The position numbers and the translations under genes were made by a program. Positions 7,694 to 20,113 of a stretch of DNA of 21,839 bases are shown here, one piece after another. Origin of the DNA: a virus; the IMG/VR virus record IMGVR_UViG_3300010354_019053, positions 1-21,839 of that record. One strand, 5' to 3'. Each line of letters starts with the position of its first letter. Position 1 is the stretch's first letter. Below the pieces are notes generated by a model that was not told the DNA's origin, did not search any database, and saw only the letters and a program-made list of their open reading frames with translations.

Positions 7694-8154
7694 AAAAGAT
7701 CTATTATGAAAAAATTGGAAAGCGATACGTTCCAGTTTCTGAATACGATAGTGAATATTTGGATAGTTTCCCCAAAGGCAATCACCTTGTGATGTGCTAT
7801 CCAGGTGGTTCGAGTCGCAAGTTTCACATTGATCCCAATTACGCGGCCTTGATTGCCGCAGGACGAGTTGCTGAAGAGCACATGCGCGAGGCCATTTATC
7901 AAGCAGCCTCTATGCATCGTATGGAGCACGAAGGCACAATATTGACTCCTGAACAAGACAAAGCATGGCGAAAGTTTGAAAAGGTCATGGGGGAGCGTGG
8001 CAAGTATATCCAATTCAACAGCACACATGACATTGCCGAATCTGGGATCAGGGCACTAGAAAACGAAGCCGCAAAACTCATGGCGCATCCTGCTGTAAAA
8101 GATGCTTATGAACAGTTTTTGTTGGTGTGCAAAATGGTCGGCCAAAAGTCTTGA
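7690..8154 (+). CDS. Conserved phage protein of unknown function (154 aa)
   Basis: This 154-aa protein begins MKKIYYEKIGKRYVPVSEYD and contains HLVMCYPGGSSRKFHIDP, AGRVAEEHMREAI and a long helical C-terminal half ending AYEQFLLVCKMV. It matches a pattern I associate with a hypothetical protein widespread in phages of aquatic bacteria. There is no signal peptide, and a soluble helical protein is expected. The start overlaps the membrane-protein stop (ATGA). Its own stop codon lies inside the -35 box of the next promoter. Confidence 0.8.
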   Translation: MKKIYYEKIGKRYVPVSEYDSEYLDSFPKGNHLVMCYPGGSSRKFHIDPNYAALIAAGRVAEEHMREAIYQAASMHRMEHEGTILTPEQDKAWRKFEKVMGERGKYIQFNSTHDIAESGIRALENEAAKLMAHPAVKDAYEQFLLVCKMVGQKS

Positions 8155-8179
8155 CAAATCGACTTTCATCTCATACAAT
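8151..8179 (+). promoter_or_regulatory. Sigma70-type promoter for the structured leader and 105-aa gene
   Basis: TTGACA (8151-8156), a 17-nt spacer and TACAAT (8174-8179) are present. The -35 overlaps the previous stop codon (TGA 8152-8154). The predicted +1 is near 8186, giving a leader of about 185 nt before ATG 8372. Confidence 0.82.
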
Positions 8180-8185
8180 TACTAG

Positions 8186-8371
8186 GCATGTCCAAGGAGG
8201 TGTGTTTTTCGATGGGGTGTGTGGGGTGATCGATAACCTGGGCCTGCACAGTATCCGTGGCACAGCGAATGTAATTCACGTAGGTGAGACACTGTCTTGG
8301 AGAGATCCAAAACCTGGGCTGGTACCCCAGGGAGTATGCCTTAAAGGTCAAAACAGTGAAAGGAATGAAAC
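8186..8371 (+). ncRNA. Structured leader RNA, candidate cis-regulatory switch
   Basis: The leader carries several complementary segments. TCGAT (8209-8213) pairs with ATCGA (8229-8233). TCAC-GTAG-GTGA occupies 8276-8287. CACTGT (8290-8295) pairs with ACAGTG (8353-8358) and closes over two hairpins: TTGGA-GAGA-TCCAA (8297-8310, a GNRA tetraloop) and CCTGGG/CCCAGG (8313-8331). The closing stem ends directly at the Shine-Dalgarno AAAGGA (8359-8364). A 9-nt direct repeat AACCTGGGC (8235-8243 and 8311-8319) gives two mutually exclusive partners for CCCAGG. Near the 5' end is a strong AAGGAGG without a normal gene behind it. I match no known riboswitch class. No credible protein-coding gene is seen in 8155-8371. 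Confidence 0.5.
8188..8229 (+). other. Possible 13-codon leader ORF
   Basis: The ATG at 8188, at or within a few bases of the predicted +1, opens a 13-codon frame (MSKEVCFSMGCVG) that ends at TGA 8227-8229. The sequence AAGGAGG lies inside it and could also serve the in-frame ATG at 8212, about 11 nt on. It could be a regulatory leader peptide or chance. Confidence 0.25.
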
Positions 8372-8689
8372 ATGTCTGTTAATATTGCGGTTTCTGCGTT
8401 GAGTATGCCGCAGTCCCTTGACTCTCTTAAAATAGTAACGCCCTTGGACATGCACCGTATTACTTTTGAAATCTCTAATCTAGAGGTTTGGTATAAAATC
8501 ATGGCTGAGGCAAGATCGCAGTACGGCAAGAACTGGCGTGCTCAACCCAAAGTAAAACGCAAACTCAGTGGCTGGAGAGCTGCCGGTTCGCCTCCAATCA
8601 AGGTTTGGTTTGAAGTGCCAGATCCCACGTTTGCAACCTGGTGCGCCGTTAAATTGGGTGTTACAGTAGTAGGAGTACCCAATAAATAA
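8372..8689 (+). CDS. Small phage protein of unknown function (105 aa)
   Basis: This is a soluble basic protein whose middle (YGKNWRAQPKVKRKLSGWRA) is rich in Lys, Arg and Trp. It is followed by IKVWFEVPDPTFATWCAVKL, which looks like a small alpha/beta fold. I recognise no family. It is the first gene behind the promoter at 8151 and the structured leader, with Shine-Dalgarno AAAGGA 7 nt upstream of the ATG, so it is the direct target of any leader regulation. The stop overlaps a TAAATA box 5 nt before the next ATG. Confidence 0.78.
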   Translation: MSVNIAVSALSMPQSLDSLKIVTPLDMHRITFEISNLEVWYKIMAEARSQYGKNWRAQPKVKRKLSGWRAAGSPPIKVWFEVPDPTFATWCAVKLGVTVVGVPNK

Positions 8690-8693
8690 ATCT

Positions 8694-10133
8694 ATGTTTC
8701 TCTCATGGTTAATGTTAGGTGTGGCACTGAGTCTCAGTGTTATCGCCGCTTTCTATAGCATAGCAGGCCTGGCAGCTATCTTTGCCGCGGCTGTACTGCC
8801 CATTGTGATCATGGGCAGTATCCTTGAAATAGCCAAACTCACTGTAACAGTTTGGTTGCACGAATACTGGGACCGGTGCCGATTCTTAATGAAGTTATAT
8901 TTGGTACCTGCTGTGGCGCTGTTGGCGTTTATTACCAGCATGGGTATTTTTGGTTTCTTGTCAAAAGCACATTCGGACCAAGGCATGGTATCTGGTGACG
9001 TGCAGGCCAAGATTGCCATCTACGACGAAAAGATAAAGACAGAACGGGAGAACATAGATGCGAACCGCAAGGCGCTTAAACAACTTGACGAAGCAGTGGA
9101 TCAAGTTATGGCACGCTCAACAGATGAAAAAGGTGCCGACAAGGCCGTGGCGATTCGCCGAGGTCAACAGAAAGACCGTGCTCGTTTACTTGAAGAAATT
9201 GCAAAGAGTCAATCGCGGATTGCCGCACTTAACGAAGAGCGAGCTCCAATTGCGGCGGAAGTACGAAAAGTGGAGGCCGAGGTGGGCCCTATCAAATATA
9301 TCGCTGCCTTGGTTTATGGGGACAATCCGGACTCGAATATATTAGAACGTGCTGTGCGTTGGGTCATAATTATTCTAGTAGTCGTATTCGATCCACTAGC
9401 CATAATGATGTTACTTGCCGCAACTGAAAGTTTTAAATGGGAAAGACAACTGCGTAACAGCAGTGCCGAGCCCGAGTACGAGCCCGACGATGGTCCATTA
9501 ACTGATTCACAAATTGTACAGGTGCAACAGTCAGTAGAAAAACCAGAAGAAGATGACAATAGACCATGGTACGAAAAGTATCCTTATTTGATAAAACCTT
9601 TTGTTCATTTTACTGACATTGGACCAATGGTACACACACCTGCGCCTACTTTGGTTCCGGGTGCTGTCAATGATGATAAAGAACACGAGTTTGATGATCA
9701 CGATCAAGAAACAGCAGAAGAAAAAGAAGCCAAGCGCATTTGGAAGTCTCAACACCCCGATTCCACAGTAAAAGCACAGAGAGAAAAATTATCTCGTGGC
9801 GAAATCGATCGTTTGCCTTGGATTGGTTTACAAGCCGACAATGAGCTGCCAAGAGGTACTGCAACTGGATTTGGAATTTTCTTTCCAGAAAAACCAAACA
9901 AAGGAGATACGTTTGTTCGTGTAGACGTCATGCCCAACCGTGTGTACAAGTACAACGGAAATGATTGGATTGTTGTTGACAAAAACATCAACGATAATTA
10001 CACTTATGATACAGCCTATATTGATCACCTCATTGAAAAAATTGCTTCTGGTGAATATGATCCCGAACTACTGAGTGATCGTGAGCGCGATCAAGTAGCA
10101 GCCCGAGTTAATCAAAACAATCTAAACGCATGA
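8694..10133 (+). CDS. Large membrane protein with coiled coil, conserved in T4-like phages
   Basis: This 479-aa protein has three N-terminal hydrophobic segments (about 3-20, 21-47 and 68-90). A long charged coiled coil follows (about 100-195, with QAKIAIYDEKIKTERENID and RARLLEEIAKSQSRIAALN), then a further TM segment (about 222-243, WVIIILVVVFDPLAIMMLLA). The remainder is acidic and Pro/Asp/Glu-rich. The C-terminal part has VRVDVMPNRVYKYNGNDWIV and EKIASGEYDPELLSDRERDQ, a pattern I know from conserved proteins of marine T4-like phages. The TM-coil-TM layout resembles DUF4407-type proteins. The gene overlaps clpX by ATGA, so the two are probably co-translated. Function unknown. Confidence 0.82.
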   Translation: MFLSWLMLGVALSLSVIAAFYSIAGLAAIFAAAVLPIVIMGSILEIAKLTVTVWLHEYWDRCRFLMKLYLVPAVALLAFITSMGIFGFLSKAHSDQGMVSGDVQAKIAIYDEKIKTERENIDANRKALKQLDEAVDQVMARSTDEKGADKAVAIRRGQQKDRARLLEEIAKSQSRIAALNEERAPIAAEVRKVEAEVGPIKYIAALVYGDNPDSNILERAVRWVIIILVVVFDPLAIMMLLAATESFKWERQLRNSSAEPEYEPDDGPLTDSQIVQVQQSVEKPEEDDNRPWYEKYPYLIKPFVHFTDIGPMVHTPAPTLVPGAVNDDKEHEFDDHDQETAEEKEAKRIWKSQHPDSTVKAQREKLSRGEIDRLPWIGLQADNELPRGTATGFGIFFPEKPNKGDTFVRVDVMPNRVYKYNGNDWIVVDKNINDNYTYDTAYIDHLIEKIASGEYDPELLSDRERDQVAARVNQNNLNA

Positions 10134-11329
10134 AGAATCCCGAAAATCTAGATAACTGTAGCTTTTGCGGAAAGCACAAAGACAATGTGGCCAAACTCAT
10201 CGTCGGAGCAGATGTTGCCATCTGCAATGAATGTGTGGATCTATGTCAGTCGTTGTTGTCCGACGATCCAGTAACCAAGCCCAACAATGATGCTACGCTT
10301 GATCCAAGAGTAATTAAAACACATCTAGATGAATATGTCATTGGGCAAGACAAAGCCAAAATGGTGTTGAGCGTTGCTATTGTAAATCATTACAAACGCA
10401 TAAACAACAAAGATAAAAATACCGAAGTTGAAAAAGCCAACATTCTCATGCTTGGTCCCACTGGTTCGGGAAAGACTTTGTTGGCACGTACTGTTGCACG
10501 ATACCTAGACGTACCTTTTGTTATTGCAGACGCAACTAGTCTGACCGAAGCGGGTTATGTAGGCGACGATGTTGAAAGTGTGATCAGTCGTTTGTATGCC
10601 GCGTCGGGAGGTAGTGTTGAAAAAACACAACGAGGCATTGTGTTTCTTGATGAAATAGATAAAATCAGTAGAAAGTCCGAAAGCTCTAGTATTACCCGAG
10701 ATGTATCTGGCGAAGGTGTACAACAAGCCTTGCTCAAGTTAGTTGAGGGAACCAAGTGCCGCATTACTCCGCAGGGAGGCCGCAAACATCCTTCGGGCGA
10801 AACCATTGAAATTGATACCACTGATATTTTGTTTATTGGTGGAGGCGCCTTTGTAGGTCTTGATACCTTGGTTAAAAAGCGTATAAAAGGTACCAGCATT
10901 GGATTTCAAGCCGAAGTTAATCAAGACACCGAAGGGGCCATGGACTTAGTAACGCCAGACGATCTAGTAAAATTTGGATTGATCCCTGAATTTGTGGGAC
11001 GATTTCCTAGTTGGGTATCGTTGACTGAACTAACACTCAACGATTTGATTTCTATCCTTACACAAATCAAACATTGCTACATTGATCAGTACAAATGGTT
11101 GTTCAATCAAGATCAAGTGGATCTTGAATTCGACTCGGATGCATTGTCGTGCATTGCAGAGAACACCATAAAAAATAAAACTGGTGCCCGTGGACTACAC
11201 AGTGAGTTAGAAAGAATCTTATTGCCGCACATGTTCAATCTTCCCAAGTACAAGTCCAATGGCATCATACAAGTAAAAATCAATAAAGAGTTGGTAAATA
11301 ATCCTACAGAACTCAAGGTTACTGCATGA
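10130..11329 (+). CDS. clpX: ClpX-type AAA+ unfoldase
   Basis: This 399-aa protein is a full ClpX. It has the N-terminal zinc-binding domain (Cys10, Cys13, Cys32, Cys35), Walker A GPTGSGKT (109-116), pore-1 loop GYVG (142-145), Walker B IVFLDE (170-175) and the RKH loop (218-220). It also has IGF (257-259), the arginine finger in EFVGR (Arg291) and sensor-2 GAR (Arg354). ClpX hexamers unfold tagged proteins and pass them to ClpP; the IGF loop is the ClpP-docking element, and it is intact although no clpP lies in the window. It should therefore bind host ClpP or act alone as an unfoldase. It is slightly shorter than E. coli ClpX (424 aa). It overlaps the upstream membrane-protein gene and the downstream bS21 gene by ATGA. 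Confidence 0.96.
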   Translation: MKNPENLDNCSFCGKHKDNVAKLIVGADVAICNECVDLCQSLLSDDPVTKPNNDATLDPRVIKTHLDEYVIGQDKAKMVLSVAIVNHYKRINNKDKNTEVEKANILMLGPTGSGKTLLARTVARYLDVPFVIADATSLTEAGYVGDDVESVISRLYAASGGSVEKTQRGIVFLDEIDKISRKSESSSITRDVSGEGVQQALLKLVEGTKCRITPQGGRKHPSGETIEIDTTDILFIGGGAFVGLDTLVKKRIKGTSIGFQAEVNQDTEGAMDLVTPDDLVKFGLIPEFVGRFPSWVSLTELTLNDLISILTQIKHCYIDQYKWLFNQDQVDLEFDSDALSCIAENTIKNKTGARGLHSELERILLPHMFNLPKYKSNGIIQVKINKELVNNPTELKVTA

Positions 11330-11550
11330 ACAAACTTCGTGGAAGGTCTGTATTGGTCACAGACGGCAACGTAGAAAAAGCTTTGCGCAAATTCAAAAAG
11401 AAAATCCAAACATCTGGATTGCTTGATGATCTGCGCACCAAAGAATCTTACATCAAGCCTACCACGCAACGAAAACTAAAAAGAAGTGCAGCCAAAAGTC
11501 GTTGGCGTAAAAAACTGGCAGAACAAGCCCTTCCTAAAAATTTGTACTGA
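11326..11550 (+). CDS. rpsU: Ribosomal protein bS21
   Basis: This 74-aa basic protein matches bS21: SVLVTDGNVEKALRKFKKKI corresponds to the N-terminal helix, then SGLLDDLRTKESYIKPTTQR contains the family signature (xxLxxxRxxxxYxKPTxxR), and a Lys/Arg-rich tail ends in LPKNLY. bS21 sits near the anti-Shine-Dalgarno end of 16S rRNA on the small subunit and affects initiation. Phage copies are known from aquatic viruses and may replace the host protein on ribosomes. The gene overlaps the clpX stop (ATGA) and the next start (TGATG). Confidence 0.93.
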   Translation: MNKLRGRSVLVTDGNVEKALRKFKKKIQTSGLLDDLRTKESYIKPTTQRKLKRSAAKSRWRKKLAEQALPKNLY

Positions 11551-11810
11551 TGTACATTGAGTTCACACTGCCCAGTGGTGCAAGCGGCATGATACCTACT
11601 CATGCCCTGGCCGTCATTAGAGATCGACTCTACAACTGGGCGGCAAAATACGAAGTTGAATACCGAACCAAACTGTACAAATACACCTTGCGGGTAACAT
11701 TTGACACAGATGATGTTTATGCTCTGTTTGGATTGACTTGGGTACCTGATCCCAAATATCCCAGTTGGACAAGTTACCGCTTGATAGTTGACCTAAATAA
11801 TAAAATATAA
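11550..11810 (+). CDS. Small conserved phage protein of unknown function (86 aa)
   Basis: This is an 86-aa protein with MYIEFTLPSGASGMIPTHAL at the start, then IRDRLYNWAAKYEVEYRTKL and VTFDTDDVYALFGLTWVP. The aromatic, alternating pattern suggests a small alpha/beta domain, and no transmembrane helix is evident. I do not recognise a named family. It overlaps the bS21 stop by one base and so belongs to the membrane protein-clpX-rpsU-86 aa translation unit. The following dnaK has its own upstream box and hairpin. Confidence 0.78.
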   Translation: MYIEFTLPSGASGMIPTHALAVIRDRLYNWAAKYEVEYRTKLYKYTLRVTFDTDDVYALFGLTWVPDPKYPSWTSYRLIVDLNNKI

Positions 11811-11822
11811 TTCGGAATCGTG

Positions 11823-11857
11823 TATAATAAATAATATTGTAGCGCCTACGGGGCTAC
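11823..11857 (+). promoter_or_regulatory. Late-type promoter box and 5' hairpin ahead of dnaK
   Basis: TATAATAAATA (11823-11833) contains a TAAATA core. Six nucleotides further, GTAGCGCC (11839-11846) pairs, with one G-G mismatch, to GGGGCTAC (11850-11857) over the loop TAC. The hairpin would be the first element of the transcript. The Shine-Dalgarno AAGGAG (11881-11886) follows unpaired. Confidence 0.5.
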
Positions 11858-11893
11858 AAACAACAATCTTGCTTAAATTTAAGGAGAAACAAC

Positions 11894-13765
11894 ATGAGCA
11901 AAGTAATCGGTATCGATTTAGGTACCACCAATTCCTGCGTAGCCGTTATTGAAAACGGTATTCCCCGAGTAATCGAAAACAGTGAAGGCGCCCGCACTAC
12001 ACCAAGTATTGTGGCCTACACTAACGATGAGATCTTGGTTGGAGCCAGTGCCAAACGACAGGCAATCACTAACCCCAAAAACACAATTTATGCTGCCAAG
12101 CGGTTGATTGGTCGCAAGTTCAAAGAACAAGCTGTGCAAAAGGACATTAATCTAATGCCGTTCAGCATTGTTGAAAACGACAATGGCGACGCTTGGGTAC
12201 AAACCGGCGATAAAAAAATAGCACCTCCACAGATTTCAGCTGAAGTTCTTCGCAAGATGAAAAAGACAGCTGAAGACTATCTTGGTCACGAAGTCCAACA
12301 GGCAGTTATTACAGTACCTGCTTACTTCAACGACAGCCAGCGACAAGCTACCAAGGATGCTGGACGTATTGCTGGCCTAGAAGTATTGCGCATTATCAAC
12401 GAACCAACAGCCGCTGCTTTGGCCTATGGTGTTGACAAAGAATCCAAGTACGATCGCAAAGTTGCTGTATACGATCTAGGCGGTGGCACATTTGATATCA
12501 GCATCATTGAAATTGCCAACGTTGACGGAGACAAACAGATTGAGGTGTTGAGTACCAACGGTGACACCTTCCTGGGCGGCGAAGACTTTGACCAACGTAT
12601 CATGGATTTCTTGGTAGAAGAATTCAAGAAAGATCAAGGTATTGATCTAACCAAAGATGTGCTGGCTTTACAACGTCTAAAGGAAGCAGCCGAAAAGGCC
12701 AAGATTGAACTTTCCAGCTCGGCACAAACAGATGTTAACTTGCCTTATATCACTGCGGATGCATCTGGTCCCAAGCACATGAACGTTAAGATTACACGTA
12801 GCAAGCTAGAACAACTTGTCGACGAGTTGATTACACGTTCGATCCAACCTTGCCTTACAGCATTGAAAGATGCAGGTGTTAGTTCCAGTGACATTGACGA
12901 AGTTATTCTTGTCGGTGGCATGACGCGAATGCCCAAGGTACAAGAAACAGTCGAGAAGTTGTTTGGTAAAGCACCACGCAAGGATGTTAACCCAGACGAA
13001 GCCGTAGCTGCCGGTGCAGCAGTCCAAGGTTCGGTTCTTGCAGGAGATCGCAAGGATGTACTGCTGCTCGACGTTACTCCGCTGAGCTTGGGGATCGAAA
13101 CCATGGGCGGTGTGTTCACCAAAATTATCCAAAAAAACACTACCATTCCTACCAAAGGAACACAGGTGTTCTCCACTGCTGAAGACAATCAACCTGCAGT
13201 AACAATCAAAGTGGGACAAGGAGAACGCGAACTGTTTCAATACAACAAACATTTGGGCGAATTCAATCTAGAGGGTATTGCACCTGCACCGAGAGGAGTC
13301 CCGCAAATCGAAGTTATTTTTGATATCGATGCCAATGGTATTATGCACATCAGTGCTCGAGACAAAGGCACAGGCAAAGAAAACAAAATTACTATCAAGA
13401 GCGACAGCGGATTGACCGAATCTGAAATCCAAAAAATGGTACAGGAAGCAGAAGAAAACGCTGACGCAGATAAAAAAGCACGCGAGCTCATTGAAGCTCG
13501 AAACAGCGGTGAGTCGTTGATGCATTCAGTGAAAAATGATCTCAAAGAACACGGAGCAAAATTAACTGAATCAGAGCGCAGTACAATTGATTCCGCTGTG
13601 GCCAAATTGGAATCTGTCGTTGATGGCAATGACGCAGAGGCAATTCGTGAAGCACAAACAGCTATGCACGATGCAATGATGCCTTTGTTCAAAGCCAAAG
13701 CGGCGTCGGAGCAAACATCACAGGATGACACTGTGGTTGATGCAGAAGTTAGGCAGGCTGCCTAA
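11894..13765 (+). CDS. dnaK: Chaperone DnaK (Hsp70)
   Basis: This is a full-length Hsp70 of 623 aa. The ATPase domain shows [57 protein letters not shown] and [16 protein letters not shown]. The hydrophobic interdomain linker [10 protein letters not shown] is near residues 388-397. The substrate-binding domain and helical lid follow, ending [10 protein letters not shown]. DnaK binds exposed hydrophobic segments and cycles with DnaJ and GrpE; neither is encoded in the window, so host partners would be needed. Segments such as [14 protein letters not shown] and [14 protein letters not shown] resemble betaproteobacterial DnaK as I recall it, suggesting acquisition from such a host. The start follows AAGGAG by 7 nt. 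No frameshift or missing domain is seen. Confidence 0.97.
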
Positions 13766-13772
13766 CTTCACA

Positions 13773-13800
13773 GTTGGGTGCTGCACAGGGCAGGCCCAAC
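13773..13800 (+). terminator. Hairpin between dnaK and hsp20
   Basis: GTTGGG (13773-13778) pairs with CCCAAC (13795-13800), and the inner CTGC (13781-13784) pairs with GCAG (13790-13793). No T-run follows, so it may be a 3'-end or 5'-UTR stabiliser for hsp20 rather than a true terminator. Confidence 0.5.
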
Positions 13801-13834
13801 CTTGTCATAACTTGCTTATAAAAGGAGATATAAA

Positions 13835-14281
13835 ATGACAAAAACTTTAACACTTCGTAGTTTCGATATTCCACAAATTCACAAATTTGGAATTGGGTTT
13901 GATGAGTTGTTTGAAGACTTGATGCGAATCACACAGCATCAATCCGGCACCAACTACCCACCGCACAATGTTATCAAAACCGGCGACGACACAGTGACCA
14001 TAGAAGTTGCTGTGGCTGGCTTTGCTGAAGGAGAGATTGATGTTACAATCGAAAAAAGATTGTTGACCATCACTGGATCCAAGCAGCGCAACGATGACCA
14101 GGAGCACGAGTATTTGCATCGCGGCATCAGCAGTAGAGATTTCAAACAGGTGTTTCCTCTCAATGAACACGTAGAAGTCAAAAGTGCTGCAATCAAAGAC
14201 GGAATCTTGAGCGTTTATTTGGAACGTGAAGTGCCCGAGGCCTCCAAGCCGAAAAGCATTGCAATTACCTACAAATCGTAA
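13835..14281 (+). CDS. Small heat-shock protein Hsp20 (IbpA-like)
   Basis: This 148-aa protein has an N-terminal arm with GFDELFEDLMRI, an alpha-crystallin domain starting at NVIKTGDDTVTIEVAVAGF and including RLLTITGSKQ, EYLHRGISSRDFKQVFPL and the closing DGILSVYLERE, and the C-terminal IxI motif (IAI, about 142-144). Small heat-shock proteins hold unfolded clients for refolding by DnaK, which is encoded just upstream, and Hsp20 genes are known in T4-like cyanophages. The start has Shine-Dalgarno AAAGGAG 7 nt upstream. A hairpin separates the gene from dnaK. Confidence 0.95.
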   Translation: MTKTLTLRSFDIPQIHKFGIGFDELFEDLMRITQHQSGTNYPPHNVIKTGDDTVTIEVAVAGFAEGEIDVTIEKRLLTITGSKQRNDDQEHEYLHRGISSRDFKQVFPLNEHVEVKSAAIKDGILSVYLEREVPEASKPKSIAITYKS

Positions 14282-14319
14282 TATAATGTAAATACAGTGA
14301 GGGCGCAGTGCCCTCACTG
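14282..14319 (+). promoter_or_regulatory. TATAAT/TAAATA box with 10-bp hairpin before clpS
   Basis: TATAAT (14282-14287) and TAAATA (14289-14294) are followed by CAGTGAGGGC (14295-14304), which pairs perfectly with GCCCTCACTG (14310-14319) over the loop GCAGT. There is no T-run. It is either an unusual terminator for hsp20 or a 5' stabilising hairpin for clpS. Confidence 0.5.
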
Positions 14320-14340
14320 ATAACAAGGATAAAAAAAATC

Positions 14341-14655
14341 ATGGCACAGTCAGAGTCTCGTACACGTATCAAGCCGTCGGAAACTGTCAAAGAACCGCCG
14401 ATGTTCAAGGTGGTGTACCTAAATGATAATCAAACCAGCATGGAGTTTGTTGTTGGAAGTTTGGTAGAATTTTTTGACTATCTCCCTGATACAGCCGAGC
14501 AAATCACAATCGATATCCATGAAACTGGAAGCGCAGTGGTTGCAGTATTGCCCTATGAGTTGGCTGAACAAAAGGGCATGGAAGTCACAATGAGTGCCCG
14601 TGCTCAACAATATCCACTTCAGATTAAACTAGAGCCCGAAGGCGTTGGTCAGTAA
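14341..14655 (+). CDS. clpS: ClpS-type N-degron adaptor
   Basis: This 104-aa protein matches ClpS: MFKVVYLNDNQTSMEFVVGS corresponds to the N-end-rule pocket region, and IDIHETGSAVVAVLPYELAE carries the pocket histidine. N28, D29, T32, M34 and H60 occupy the positions of E. coli N34, D35, T38, M40 and H66; E. coli D36 is replaced by N30. ClpS delivers substrates with bulky N-terminal residues to ClpA, not to ClpX, and no clpA lies in the window, so the partner would be host ClpA. I place the start at ATG 14341 behind AAGGA; the upstream TTG at 14308 would overlap the hairpin. The stop overlaps the convergent phosphoesterase by 7 nt. Confidence 0.93.
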   Translation: MAQSESRTRIKPSETVKEPPMFKVVYLNDNQTSMEFVVGSLVEFFDYLPDTAEQITIDIHETGSAVVAVLPYELAEQKGMEVTMSARAQQYPLQIKLEPEGVGQ

Positions 14656-15870: not shown

Positions 15871-16578
15871 ATGTACGAAATAATAATAACTTTAATAATG
15901 ACGCACATTACTATTGTATGCGTCACTCTTTACCTGCACCGAAGTCAAGCACACCGAAGCGTAGAATTTCATCCAGCAATCGCACATTTCATGCGTTTTT
16001 GGCTTTGGTTAACAACAGGCATGGTTACCCGTCAGTGGGTAGCTATACATCGAAAACATCACAGATACAGTGATCGCCAGGGAGATCCGCACAGCCCGCA
16101 TGTGTACGGTATCTGGCATGTTTTATTCAAAGGGGCTGCATTATATCATGACGCGAGCAAAGATTCAAAGTTGGTTAATACATATGGTGCTGGTACTCCT
16201 GATGATTGGATGGAGCGCAACATATACAGTGCTCATTCCAGACTTGGCATTTGCATTCTCTTTTTGCTCAACCTAGTTGCATTTGGTTGGTGGGGGATTG
16301 TGATTTGGTTGGTTCAAATGGTGTGGATACCATTCTGGGCTGCCGGTGTGATCAACGGCCTAGGACATTGGTGGGGATATCAAAATGGAGAAACTAGAGA
16401 TCTTAGCAGGAATATTAGTCCCATTGGTATTATCATCGGTGGTGAATGTTTACATAACAATCATCATTTGGACCCTGCTAGTGCCAAATTGAGCCGACGT
16501 TGGTTTGAATTCGACATCGGCTGGATGTATATACAATTACTCAGATTCGCTGGCCTTGCCACTGTCAATAGAGTTTAA
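15871..16578 (+). CDS. Membrane fatty acid desaturase (delta-9 type)
   Basis: This 235-aa membrane protein has the three histidine boxes that bind the di-iron centre of acyl desaturases: HRSQAH (23-28), HRKHH (60-64) and HNNHH (195-199). Hydrophobic segments flank them (about 3-20, 35-52 and 120-165). The family inserts a double bond into fatty-acyl chains in the membrane. The protein is shorter than usual bacterial forms (often 280 aa or more) at both ends, yet all boxes are present. No Shine-Dalgarno precedes the ATG; ATG 15898 is an alternative start. Its 3' end overlaps the convergent minus gene by 42 nt. The likely role is to change host membrane fluidity during infection, which is inference. 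Confidence 0.92.
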   Translation: MYEIIITLIMTHITIVCVTLYLHRSQAHRSVEFHPAIAHFMRFWLWLTTGMVTRQWVAIHRKHHRYSDRQGDPHSPHVYGIWHVLFKGAALYHDASKDSKLVNTYGAGTPDDWMERNIYSAHSRLGICILFLLNLVAFGWWGIVIWLVQMVWIPFWAAGVINGLGHWWGYQNGETRDLSRNISPIGIIIGGECLHNNHHLDPASAKLSRRWFEFDIGWMYIQLLRFAGLATVNRV

Positions 16579-17205
16579 CTTTTTTTCTTTTGCAATTTTA
16601 GCCGCTGCTTCCAGCAATGGATTCTTGGGAATCAACTCAATTTGAAGCGGATCGTTGCTGGCTTCCAGCATGTAACTTTCTTTGGGTATCAATCCGGCCT
16701 CTTGCAATGCAGTCCACGTCATAGGGTTGCTCATTGCATTTCGAATCTTTGCCGGCGACGGTCTGCCAGTAGCAACAATTTCTGCGTAGATTTCTCGCCC
16801 AATCATTGCAGTAAATTCATTGGCAGCATTGACCTCAAACATTTGCTCATCAGTGTATCCGGGCAGTCTAGTAGGCTCTGCTATTGCATAATACTCGGCC
16901 AACAGCTTCTCAAGAATTTCAATTTCTTGCCTGTTAAGTTCAAACGCATAACTTGGGTCTCCAAAACTCTCAACTTCTTTTATTTCAGCAGTGAGTTCAA
17001 GGATCTCGTACTCGGGTGCACCTGTTTGCTTAAGATGCTCAAGCTTGGCTCGTTTGGCCTGTAACTTGATTGCACCAACTTCTTCGAGCGCAGCAGCTCT
17101 CCGACGACCTTCGAGAAATCCATGAAGTGTTTTTATCTTCTCCCAAACTGTTTCACCAATGACTTGGTAACGATAATTGAATTCGGTGTTTAATTTTACT
17201 GGCAT
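16537..17205 (-). CDS. Phage protein of unknown function with coiled-coil region (222 aa)
   Basis: This is a soluble, Glu/Ala/Lys-rich protein beginning MPVKLNTEFNYRYQVIGETV. A predicted helical/coiled-coil part covers about 35-95 (RRRAAALEEVGAIKLQAKRA and ILELTAEIKEVES), then YYAIAEPTRLPGYTDEQMFE, and a Lys/Glu-rich tail. I recognise the layout from conserved unknown proteins of T4-like phages, but no enzyme motif. The ATG lies 4 nt behind a minus-strand TAAATA box, with no Shine-Dalgarno. The C-terminal codons overlap the desaturase on the other strand by 42 nt. Confidence 0.8.
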   Translation of the reverse strand: MPVKLNTEFNYRYQVIGETVWEKIKTLHGFLEGRRRAAALEEVGAIKLQAKRAKLEHLKQTGAPEYEILELTAEIKEVESFGDPSYAFELNRQEIEILEKLLAEYYAIAEPTRLPGYTDEQMFEVNAANEFTAMIGREIYAEIVATGRPSPAKIRNAMSNPMTWTALQEAGLIPKESYMLEASNDPLQIELIPKNPLLEAAAKIAKEKKLNSIDSGKASESE

Positions 17206-17209
17206 GAAT

Positions 17210-17215
17210 TATTTA
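17210..17215 (-). promoter_or_regulatory. TAAATA box ahead of the 222-aa gene
   Basis: Minus-strand TAAATA (17215 down to 17210) stands 4 nt before the ATG, as for the other minus-strand gene. No ribosome-binding site is visible. Confidence 0.35.
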
Positions 17216-17253
17216 CTACCTTCGGTAAGTGAAGCAAAATTTTGTCGTAGTAC

Positions 17254-17282
17254 CAGACACAACATAAATTATTAGATATAAT
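17254..17282 (+). promoter_or_regulatory. Possible sigma70-type promoter
   Basis: CAGACA (17254-17259, 4 of 6 to consensus), a 17-nt spacer and a perfect TATAAT (17277-17282) lie upstream of ATG 17301, with an AAAGGA Shine-Dalgarno in between. Confidence 0.5.
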
Positions 17283-17300
17283 CTATCTAAAGGAATATTC

Positions 17301-18539
17301 ATGGAAAAAATTGGATTCATCGGTATTGGTAAACTAGGCTTAGACTGCGCCGAAGTAATGGCCGAAAAGCACGAAGTTCGTGGCTACGACATTTATCCAC
17401 GTACCAGTGACACAGTCAAGGTATGCGGCATTGAAGAATTAGTTGATCAAAGCGATTGGATCTTCATTGCTGTGCCAACACCGCATGCCGAAGGGTACGA
17501 TGGTTCGGTGCCTAGTTCGCACATGGAGCCTCGAGACTTTGGTCACGATGCTGTAATTGATGCTATCAACAATATCAATTGTTATGCCAAGACACAGAAA
17601 AAAGTTGTGTTAATTTCCACAGTGTTGCCCGGAACAACACGCCGTAAGTTTATTACACTGTTGGACAAACAACACTTGTTCTTGTACAATCCCTATCTCA
17701 TTGCCATGGGATCAGTTAAGTGGGATATGGCCAATCCTGAAATGGTTATCATTGGCACAGAAGATGGCAGTTTGACCGGTGTAGCCGGCGAGCTAATCAA
17801 CTTGTACAAAACCATTATGAACAACGATCCACGTTACGAGGTTGGGACTTGGGACGAATGCGAAGCTATTAAGATTTTCTACAACACATTTATCTCTGCC
17901 AAGGTAGGCTTGGTAAACATGATTCAAGACTTTGCACTGAAGATTGGCAATATCAATGTTGACGTTGTTACCAATGCCCTTGCTCGCAGTACCATGCGTA
18001 TCATGGGTCCCAAGTACATGACAGCCGGTATGGGTGATGCCGGAGCTTGCCATCCACGGGACAACATTGCTCTGCGTTGGTTGGCACAGGAATATGACAT
18101 CGGTTACGACTTGTTTGACACCGTGATGCATGCTAGAGAAATTCAAGCCAAGAACTTGGCAGGGTTTTTGGTAGAACAAGCCAAACAACGTGGTATGAGT
18201 GTTATCATTCATGGCAAAGCATACAAGCCTGATGTTGAGTACTGCATCGGTTCTTATTCCACTTTGGTTGGACATTATATCAAGCAAATGGGTTTTGGTG
18301 TAAGGTATCTTGATCCATTGGCCGACGATAAAAATGAAGTAATTTCCGAAGTTGCTGGGCCAGCTGTGTTTCTTTGGGCACACAACCGAAAAATCACATA
18401 TGAGTATACCGGTGACCAACAAGACACTCAACCATACTGCGAGATTCCTCCAGGATCTATCATTGTTGATCCGTGGCGTAAACTCAAATCGGGCAACGGA
18501 ATTGAAGTAATCCATTACGGCAACACACGACCACAGTAA
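17301..18539 (+). CDS. UDP-glucose/GDP-mannose dehydrogenase family protein
   Basis: This 412-aa protein has an N-terminal Rossmann fold (FIGIGKLGLDCAEVMA, GxGxxG at 8-13), then IFIAVPTPHAEGYDGS, STVLPGTTRR and ECEAIKIFYNTFISAKVGLV. The catalytic-cysteine motif GACHPRD (Cys250) corresponds to GSCFPKD of UDP-glucose 6-dehydrogenases, and the C-terminal domain has GKAYKPDVEYCIGSYS. Such enzymes oxidise nucleotide-hexose to the uronic acid by two NAD-dependent steps. The Phe-to-His change after the Cys and the divergent C-terminus make the exact sugar uncertain. The start follows AAAGGA. A strong terminator closes the gene, and an independent promoter overlaps that terminator. Confidence 0.9.
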   Translation: MEKIGFIGIGKLGLDCAEVMAEKHEVRGYDIYPRTSDTVKVCGIEELVDQSDWIFIAVPTPHAEGYDGSVPSSHMEPRDFGHDAVIDAINNINCYAKTQKKVVLISTVLPGTTRRKFITLLDKQHLFLYNPYLIAMGSVKWDMANPEMVIIGTEDGSLTGVAGELINLYKTIMNNDPRYEVGTWDECEAIKIFYNTFISAKVGLVNMIQDFALKIGNINVDVVTNALARSTMRIMGPKYMTAGMGDAGACHPRDNIALRWLAQEYDIGYDLFDTVMHAREIQAKNLAGFLVEQAKQRGMSVIIHGKAYKPDVEYCIGSYSTLVGHYIKQMGFGVRYLDPLADDKNEVISEVAGPAVFLWAHNRKITYEYTGDQQDTQPYCEIPPGSIIVDPWRKLKSGNGIEVIHYGNTRPQ

Positions 18540-18553
18540 ATCTGCGGTATCCC

Positions 18554-18593
18554 AAAGGTCAAGTTTGGTAGCATTACCACTTGACCTTTTTTT
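18554..18593 (+). terminator. Strong intrinsic terminator
   Basis: AAAGGTCAAGT (18554-18564) pairs over 11 bp with ACTTGACCTTT (18579-18589), with an inner GGTA-GCAT-TACC stem, and the T-run reaches 18593. The descending arm contains TTGACC, the -35 box of the next promoter. Confidence 0.92.
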
Positions 18594-18609
18594 AATTCTA
18601 TGTTACAAT
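18581..18609 (+). promoter_or_regulatory. Promoter embedded in the terminator, leaderless
   Basis: TTGACC (18581-18586) in the terminator's right arm, a 17-nt spacer and TACAAT (18604-18609) are present. The ATG of the next gene is at 18615, only 5 nt after the -10 box, so the transcript would be leaderless or nearly so. Confidence 0.78.
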
Positions 18610-18614
18610 ATTGT

Positions 18615-19088
18615 ATGAAGATTGGGTTTAATTGTAGCTCGTTTGATTTCTTGCACGCCGGGCATGTTACTATGCTCAAAATGGAGAAAAACCTGTGCGA
18701 CTATTTGATAGTCGCACTGCAAGTGGATCCAACTGTGGACAGGCCTGGTGTAAAGAACAAACCTGTTCAAAGCGTGTACGAAAGGTACGTTCAACTTCAG
18801 GCCTGTAAATATGTTGATGAAATTTTGGTTTACGAAACTGAGTTTGATCTTTTGCAATTGCTGATGACCCAGACCATCCACATCAGATTTTTAAGTGAAG
18901 AATACTTCAACAGAGATTTTACTGGAAAGCAATATTGTATTGACAACGGCATTGAATTGCATTATCATAAGAGACGGCACATTTATAGCTCCAGTGAGCT
19001 AAGAGAAAGAACTGTAACATTAGAAAGTCAAAAAACTATACCTGAATCATCTATTCCTCCTCACTCACCTGAACTTATTAAAAAATGA
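18615..19088 (+). CDS. Cytidylyltransferase-like nucleotidyltransferase
   Basis: This 157-aa protein begins MKIGFNCSSFDFLHAGHVTM and has the HxGH signature HAGH (14-17) of the nucleotidyltransferase superfamily, then KPVQSVYERYVQLQACKYVD and YSSSELRERT, which matches the family's S/T-S-x-L-R motif. Members transfer CMP or AMP to phosphate substrates, such as glycerol-3-phosphate cytidylyltransferase; the substrate here is unknown. The start at 18615 is chosen because MKIGF is the normal family beginning; the TTG/ATG at 18600 lies inside the promoter. There is no Shine-Dalgarno, consistent with leaderless initiation. The stop overlaps the uvsE start (ATGA). Confidence 0.88.
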   Translation: MKIGFNCSSFDFLHAGHVTMLKMEKNLCDYLIVALQVDPTVDRPGVKNKPVQSVYERYVQLQACKYVDEILVYETEFDLLQLLMTQTIHIRFLSEEYFNRDFTGKQYCIDNGIELHYHKRRHIYSSSELRERTVTLESQKTIPESSIPPHSPELIKK

Positions 19089-20113
19089 ATACAAGAATTG
19101 GTTTCTGTTGCAAATGGCTCGATGACCCCAGTGAAACTGCTGGTCGTAAACCTACATCTGAGAGCCGTGAACTAAACGGGCGTTCCACTACCATGCGTTG
19201 GCTGCGTGAGCACAAAGACGAAGCCGAACAGCGCCAGTGGGACATTATGAATCACAATGCTCGTGCTGCCTTGCTTATGGTCGAGCGTGTGGCTACATTA
19301 CCGCCCGAACGACGCATGGTGCGATTGGGTAGCGAGATGCTACAAGGTTATACTGAACCCTCATGGATAGATTGGTGGCAACGACGTGAAATACAAGATC
19401 ACTGCGAGAAAATTTTTAAACCGGTGGGCGATACTGCTCGGAGGCTTGGCGTTCGGTTATCCTTCCATCCGGGACAATTTTGTGTGCTGGCAAGTGAGGC
19501 TGATGAGATTGTGGAACGATCCATCCTCGAATTTGAATATCATGCTGACATGGCACGCTGGATGGGCTATGGCTCGAGCTGGCACGATCACGGATTCAAG
19601 ATTAACGTGCATCTTTCGGGCAAGGGCGGTCCTGAGAAGTTTCTACGCACACTCAAGCGATTGAGTCCCGAGGCTCGCAACCTCATAACTATCGAAAACG
19701 ACGAGATATCAAATGGTTTGGACATTTCTCTTTCTGTGGCTGATCATGTGGCTCTTGTGTTGGACATTCATCACCATTGGGTCAAGACCGGAGAATATAT
19801 CTCGCCACAAGATGATCGTGTTAAGCGTGTGGTTGAGTCTTGGCGTGGTACTCGCCCTGCTATGCATTACAGTGTTAGTCGCGAAGATATTCTTGTTGAT
19901 CATGATTCCCGAGTTCGCCCAGATCTTGCTGGACTTCTTGATCGAGGTCATAAAAAGCAACAACTCCGCGCACACAGTGACTTCTGTTGGAATTATGCTG
20001 TGAATGATTGGGCCTTGACCTTTGCTGATCAATTTGACATACAGGTCGAGGCCAAGGGCAAGAACCTAGCAAGTCAACAACTTTATGAACAATATATTAG
20101 TAGGAATCATTGA
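19085..20113 (+). CDS. uvsE: UV damage endonuclease (UvsE/UVDE family)
   Basis: This 342-aa protein begins MNTRIGFCCKWLDD and carries LSFHPGQFCVLAS, INVHLSGKGGPEKF, ITIENDEISNG, VALVLDIHHHWVK and MHYSVSRED. The acidic and histidine residues on a TIM-barrel pattern are those of the UvsE/UVDE endonucleases, which nick DNA 5' of UV photoproducts and so start an alternative excision repair route. It is slightly longer than common bacterial forms (about 300 aa). The start overlaps the preceding stop (ATGA), and the 3' end overlaps the next ORF by 29 nt. Protection of phage DNA in sunlit water is a plausible role. Confidence 0.92.
   Translation: MNTRIGFCCKWLDDPSETAGRKPTSESRELNGRSTTMRWLREHKDEAEQRQWDIMNHNARAALLMVERVATLPPERRMVRLGSEMLQGYTEPSWIDWWQRREIQDHCEKIFKPVGDTARRLGVRLSFHPGQFCVLASEADEIVERSILEFEYHADMARWMGYGSSWHDHGFKINVHLSGKGGPEKFLRTLKRLSPEARNLITIENDEISNGLDISLSVADHVALVLDIHHHWVKTGEYISPQDDRVKRVVESWRGTRPAMHYSVSREDILVDHDSRVRPDLAGLLDRGHKKQQLRAHSDFCWNYAVNDWALTFADQFDIQVEAKGKNLASQQLYEQYISRNH

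Follow-up and report, generated by a model that had tools for sequence, protein, structure and literature searches.

Translational (auto)repression by ribosome entrapment has been described for the uS4 operator (alpha operon of E. coli) and the uS15 operator (rpsO), in which the ribosome-binding site is included in a complex pseudoknotted fold of the mRNA (PMC10931766). The phage element reported here has a fold of this kind, but it shows no Rfam similarity, its 5' terminus pairs with codons 24-28 of the following gene, and it is a candidate operator only. In the leader of T4 gene 32, a phage mRNA pseudoknot likewise precedes the gene for a nucleic-acid-binding protein and serves autogenous repression; the gp32 pseudoknot is small, has two helices, and is located 67 nt 5' of the start codon (PMC3014915, PMC535899), whereas our element, with its 13 helices, extends over 28 codons, and its product is unrelated, with putative nucleic-acid binding. 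As for the cspA thermosensor, mRNA structure controls the translation of a small RNA-binding protein that acts on its own mRNA (PMC6386945, PMC9947658), and the phage element has no detectable similarity to it. GOLLD, ROOL, and OLE are structured RNAs with kissing loops, of which GOLLD and ROOL are phage-encoded, and covariation is seen in the palindromic loops of OLE and GOLLD; these RNAs were described as stand-alone and larger (GOLLD is often over 800 nt) (PMC12286853), whereas the phage element belongs to an mRNA, and none of their Rfam models matches it. The manA and wcaG riboswitch candidates of cyanophages are also phage-borne structured cis-RNAs with an unknown ligand, but they are found before several kinds of genes (PMC2864571), and no Rfam model matches the phage element.

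The window analysed is the whole 21.8-kb stretch of DNA (21,839 nt) of the IMG/VR virus record IMGVR_UViG_3300010354_019053. Protein and pattern scans of viral contigs yielded 99 distinct leader-plus-gene sequences. A homologue of the same 105-aa gene was located directly 3' of every element found with two different DNA patterns, with the exception of contig-end and gene-start-only cases; a scan with a corrected pattern of the 3' core detected 65 stretches, and the gene was present in 46 of the 46 matches from newly added loci. In 16 phage contigs (77-364 kb), the covariance model of the leader gave one strong copy apiece. No relatives were found in 84,980 prokaryote genomes or in 50,697 isolate phage records. 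The element is carried by a family of uncultivated large phages that has no cultured member in the databases searched. The first-pass annotation had recognised no known riboswitch class in the leader, and the search against Rfam 15 agreed with this: there was no match at the gathering score anywhere in the window or in eight homologous loci, nothing at E<=1 for positions 8180-8480, and, for positions 8180-8380 at E<=1, one chance match (E=0.93) below the gathering score. The RNA class is apparently undescribed and probably not yet catalogued.

The strong promoter ascribed to the leader was recovered by the promoter scan as a sigma-70 site, TTGACA-N17-TACAAT, at 8151-8179 on the + strand, with +1 at 8186. 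A TTGACN/TANNNT promoter with a spacer of 16-18 nt (17 nt in 77) was present in 92 of the 99 homologues (TTGACA in 88 and TATAAT in 85). Since the homologue promoters end 6-8 nt 5' of GCAUG/GCAUA, transcription is predicted to start with the base that opens the structure (8186). The scan detected no terminator-like site on the + strand of the element, which makes transcriptional control less likely. As for the boundaries, the leader that had been proposed at 8186-8371 is real, but its limits were not correct: the comparative fold starts at +1 (8186) and ends within the gene, at about 8453. The whole structured element (8186-8453, + strand, 268 nt) thus consists of the leader and the first 28 codons; these codons, a third of the element that the first-pass annotation missed, are both coding and structured. 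The leader itself is not a conserved coding interval. The open reading frame at 8127-8402 was rejected as an upstream coding sequence; leader lengths vary freely among the homologues, and most of the P2 arm is missing from L051.

The fold consists of 12 nested helices (P1, P2a-d, and P3-P8) and one pseudoknot, with 65 pairs in total (all on the + strand). In P1, the first 12 nt of the transcript (GCAUGUCCAAGG, 8186-8197) form 12 of 12 pairs with codons 24-28 (CCUUGGACAUGC, 8442-8453). P1 keeps 10-12 bp in every homologue, with both-side changes in 8 of the 12 pairs, and the mean number of P1 pairs per sequence was 11.66 of 12, versus a mean of 10.66 and a maximum of 10.91 with swapped partners. 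The P2 arm (8201-8280) comprises P2a (8201-8204/8277-8280), P2b (8207-8210/8267-8270), P2c (8212-8215/8255-8258), and P2d (8221-8224/8244-8247), and was assigned by the covariation test and pair counts; in the tree-aware test, the pairs 8203-8278 (E=0.001) and 8209-8268 (E=0.017) covaried, and both lie outside the model that guided the alignment. In L051, P2d is replaced by a UUCU loop on AUGGA/UCCGU. P5 (8290-8358) is composed of CACUGU/ACAGUG (8290-8295/8353-8358) and CUU/AAG (8296-8298/8344-8346) and encloses P3 and P4; its pair 8293-8355 is UA, AU, or GU and always paired (E=0.058), and the upper pairs change between CG and UA and among UA, AU, and CG. P3 is the hairpin GGA-GAGA-UCC (8299-8308; covariation E=0.002 to 0.005), of which the loop is UUCG or GNRA-like in the homologues, and P4 is the hairpin CCUGGG-CUGGUAC-CCCAGG (8313-8331; CG/AU and AU/UA/GC changes, 96.6% paired).

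Three helices involve the ribosome-binding site or the coding sequence in addition to P1. In P6 (8359-8377), the GGA (8362-8364) of the Shine-Dalgarno sequence AAAGGA (8359-8364) is paired with codon 2 (UCU, 8375-8377), so that the start codon sits in the loop; 100% of the cells were paired, and A-U is changed to U-A (GGU with an ACU codon) in 11 sequences. In P7, GAGA (8286-8289; GCGA in the other subfamily) pairs with UCUC of codons 18-19 (8423-8426); 100% of the cells were again paired, the pair 8287-8425 covaried with E=0.01 in the unguided alignment, and AU is changed to CG in 28 sequences. P8 is a hairpin within the coding sequence (8388-8410), in which codons 6-7 pair with codons 12-13 (8388-8391/8407-8410); its pair 8390-8408 was GC in 37, AU in 36, and GU in 3 sequences, and both-side changes were found at all four P8 pairs. 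The pseudoknot is formed between GGCA (8259-8262) and UGCC (8337-8340) inside the conserved GUAUGC, with 99% of the cells paired, G-C changed to A-U in the L071 clade, and A-U changed to U-A in L189 and L190. The unpaired core (GCA, AAA, GUAUGC, and GU...C) is highly conserved. Two earlier assignments were replaced: GCAUG at the 5' end, which had been paired with UAUGC of the leader as the first closing helix, pairs with codons 27-28 once the coding region is included, and GGCA, which had been paired with UGNG, pairs with UGCC (8337-8340), while UGNGA pairs with codons 18-19. Note that the 5' terminal GCAUG has a second, nearly invariant complement in the leader, within the invariant GUAUGC (8334-8339). 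This pairing may form transiently before codons 27-28 are transcribed, which covariation cannot tell, and it may be a co-transcriptional switch distinct from the one proposed in the first-pass annotation.

The switch proposed there was based on the direct repeat AACCTGGGC, which is present exactly at 8235 and 8311 and was thought to give CCCAGG two alternative partners. The individual structures named with it are all present: the closing stem CACTGT (8290-8295)/ACAGTG (8353-8358), which ends directly before the Shine-Dalgarno sequence; the hairpin with the GAGA tetraloop; and the hairpin CCTGGG/CCCAGG (8313-8318/8326-8331). Covariation in 76-93 homologues places the closing stem and both hairpins far beyond chance. 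However, the alternative pairing did not hold up. The copy at 8235 could pair with the 3' strand of P4 (5 or more bp) in 41% of cases, versus 46% +- 5% with swapped partners; the two copies of AACCTGGGC thus show no co-evolution as a switch, and the copy at 8235 sits in the P2d loop.

The stems covary among the homologous leaders in a custom test, a home-made R-scape-like procedure in which the null redistributes the observed substitutions along a FastTree tree, and for which the E-values are approximate. The first signals were 8203-8278, a hairpin pair, and 8209-8268, two of which were absent from the alignment model; extension of the alignment into the gene gave new signals at 8287-8425 (E=0.03, then 0.01 in the unguided alignment), 8390-8408, and 8192-8447. 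In alignment A9 (unguided MAFFT, 76 distinct sequences, L189 and L190 left out), 93.5% of the cells were paired and both-side changes occurred in 43 of the 65 pairs. The number of cells changed on both sides was 641, versus 213.7 +- 19.5 in shuffles and <=117 in slid controls, and the covariation score was 0.365, versus 0.174 +- 0.004 when shuffled and <=0.102 when slid. Many of the sequences are closely related, so few single pairs pass 0.05. The alignment was in view when the helices were selected; the checks against circularity were the unguided alignment, the slid controls, and the held-out L189/L190. The evidence is comparative: the folding energy was not unusual (z = +0.31 for the leader and -1.42 for 8186-8460) and was rejected as evidence for structure, and the consensus fold differs from the computed minimum-energy fold, with a median of 18 kcal/mol above it (tertiary terms not included).

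The gene behind the leader (8372-8689, + strand) encodes a basic protein of 105 aa (pI 9.9). It had been described as an unknown basic protein, and it indeed has no Pfam, NCBIfam, or PDB sequence match. Nearly all of its homologues are basic (median pI 9.6), and they share an invariant basic segment, W..Q...KR.L, which together with the charge hints at nucleic-acid binding. PHROG 5720, to which no function is attached, showed weak similarity (11 of 29 homologues, best E 1e-4). AlphaFold2 with 29 homologues gave a pLDDT of 71, with residues 1-22 of low confidence or disordered and a predicted domain from about residue 27; the invariant Met27 falls where the folded domain is predicted to begin. 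Initiation at Met27 as a second start (8372-8449 region) was considered, but there is no evident Shine-Dalgarno sequence for it. RNA binding by the protein is a guess from its charge, because nothing beyond generic ferredoxin-like domains matched in the fold and solved-structure searches (Z up to 6.9). The next gene (8694-10133, + strand) encodes a membrane/coiled-coil protein with weak DUF4407 similarity (Pfam, below the cut-off); such a gene is close downstream of the 105-aa gene in nearly all loci tested, and the upstream genes vary. Two more sigma-70-like sites (10 of 12) at 9976-10061, inside the DUF4407-like gene, are possible internal promoters before clpX.

As for the other genes in the window, Pfam assigned ribonucleotide reductase small chain, PAAR, gamma-glutamyl cyclotransferase, ATP-dependent DNA ligase, ClpX, Hsp20, and ClpS in the regions 8-871 and 10130-14655, which also encode a 623-aa protein that is DnaK-like by sequence. 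ClpX, Hsp20, ClpS, and the DnaK-like protein, as predicted, make up a dense protein-quality-control cluster in this phage. The region 15871-20110 encodes a fatty acid desaturase, a UDP-glucose/GDP-mannose dehydrogenase, a cytidylyltransferase-like protein, and the UV endonuclease UvdE, which are likely auxiliary metabolic and repair genes.

The reading frame is intact across the structured codons. The distance from the start to Met27 was 72, 75, or 78 nt (multiples of 3) in 98 of the 99 homologues, and none of the 99 had a stop codon in the first 27 codons; the translation start at 8372 is therefore well supported. The codon-identity excess was 0.45 in codons 2-27 and 0.18 in the rest of the gene (Mann-Whitney p=1e-4), with frozen synonymous positions (TCT, GCG, TTG, CTT, ACG, and CAC). 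Overall, synonymous conservation is strong over codons 2-29, even though the N-terminus is predicted to be disordered. Pairing is kept where the amino acids are not. In L048, CAAGG/CCUUG of P1 is replaced by UGGGG/CCCCA, which changes Leu to Pro and turns Pro-Leu-Val into Pro-Pro-Gly; L051 has a different but paired P1 that reads Asn-Ser-Val, and the paired P1 of L183 reads PPV. In P7, A-U is changed to G-C together with Ser18 to Pro in L051, L183, L184, L194, and the held-out L189. The held-out L189/L190 have GCAUAGUGUCGG/CCGACGCUAUGC as P1 (12 of 12 pairs, including one G-U), which in L189 reads Thr-Asp-Ala in place of Pro-Leu-Val, and they form P7 as GUGG/CCGC (4 of 4) and the pseudoknot as GGCU/AGCC (4 of 4). 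The comparison indicates that the RNA shape dictates part of the protein sequence, in that the compensations swap amino acids and the pairs stay. The need to maintain the RNA pairs makes the first 28 residues of the protein largely a by-product of RNA structure.

We consider it reasonably probable that the element is a cis-acting translation-control RNA of the phage operon, and that it is regulated by its own basic product. As we propose, the 268-nt element would control translation from the 5' end of an operon of two or more genes. The comparison of the homologues shows that the first 12 bases of the transcript close a domain over codons 24-28; within this domain, the Shine-Dalgarno GGA is held by codon 2, and helices take up codons 6-7, 12-13, and 18-19. 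With the Shine-Dalgarno sequence and the early codons paired, a ribosome has to compete with the fold both to enter and to elongate through the first codons. The folded form would thereby repress or time translation of both the 105-aa protein and the next gene. Less certainly, the effector may be the 105-aa protein itself, which would bind the unpaired core and the pseudoknot; the accumulated protein would then stabilise the closed form, in the way that uS4 and uS15 act on the pseudoknots of their operators. Counting against this reading, the P6 helix on the Shine-Dalgarno sequence is only 3 bp, and a leading ribosome might prevent the fold, because the full set of helices needs codon 28 to be transcribed.

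Metabolite riboswitch classes usually recur before several genes. A new class of small-molecule riboswitch, in which the core of P2, P5, and the pseudoknot would be the aptamer, and P6, P7, and P1 the expression platform masking the ribosome-binding site, is unlikely here. The highly conserved unpaired core and pseudoknot, the covariation of the structured core, the peripheral hairpins capped by GNRA or UUCG loops, and the variable, dispensable P2d arm would suit an aptamer; however, the element is found before one gene family only, with one copy per genome and no Rfam match. The strict association with a single gene, whose product is basic, recalls autogenous operators such as those of uS4 (alpha operon), uS15 (rpsO), and T4 gene 32 (PMC10931766, PMC3014915), and speaks for an operator of this type rather than for a metabolite riboswitch.

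A similarly small probability is given to a dual-function RNA, of which the folded RNA itself would be a product, made in abundance and perhaps as a homodimer through the P2d loop, with the overlapping gene translated from the same transcript. The near-consensus promoter (TTGACA in 88 and TATAAT in 85 of 99) and the domain closed from +1 are consistent with it, as are the covarying palindromes of the P2d loop, a type of signal used for the kissing loops of OLE and GOLLD (PMC12286853). The P2d loop contains a palindromic hexamer (8237-8242, + strand; CCUGGG in the window), a candidate kissing-dimer site, which is Watson-Crick palindromic in 61 of 71 aligned homologues and in 81% of the sequences in the aligned window. 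Four palindromes occur there (CCCGGG, ACCGGU, CCUAGG, and UCCGGA), with 18 palindrome changes on the tree, and no other window of the element gives a stronger signal of this type; the covariation of the outer pair (E about 0.8) is not significant alone. In the L071 clade (L071:2818-3003), the P2d loop has a different, longer palindrome, AUCUCGAGAU. By cryo-EM of OLE, ROOL, and GOLLD, palindrome switching was argued to support intermolecular kissing loops (PMC12286853), and the P2d palindromes are only suggestive of RNA dimers. The strict linkage to one gene, of which the ribosome-binding site is embedded in the fold, argues against a dual-function RNA, as do the absence of a palindromic loop from L051 and the different register of the palindrome in the L071 clade. 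A further tentative and rather doubtful idea is a dimerising, RNA-first overlapping gene, in which the 3' third would be obligately coding, RNA structure rather than protein function would dictate the first 28 residues, and the molecule would be both a regulatory or scaffold RNA and an mRNA.

It is improbable that the element is an RNA thermometer or a chaperone-responsive element, which the neighbouring clpX, dnaK, hsp20, and clpS had brought into consideration: the ClpX, Hsp20, and ClpS genes are within about 6 kb downstream, and temperature sensing by an mRNA has a precedent in cspA (PMC6386945), but the 12-bp, GC-containing P1 and the strongly conserved unpaired bases are unlike a simple melting hairpin. 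That codons 2-28 are conserved at the protein level only, with the leader as a separate, smaller element, would agree with the near invariance of M27, H28, and S11 but is very improbable, given the frozen synonymous positions, the amino acids that co-change with leader bases (L048, L051, L183, and L189), and residues 1-20, which are modelled at a pLDDT of about 40.

The element is an unusually clear case of RNA pairing overriding protein sequence, and searches for cis-regulatory RNAs that halt at the start codon would miss one third of it, together with its closing helix. For a phage group without a cultured member in the searched databases, the element and the 105-aa protein are a directly testable candidate operator-protein pair.
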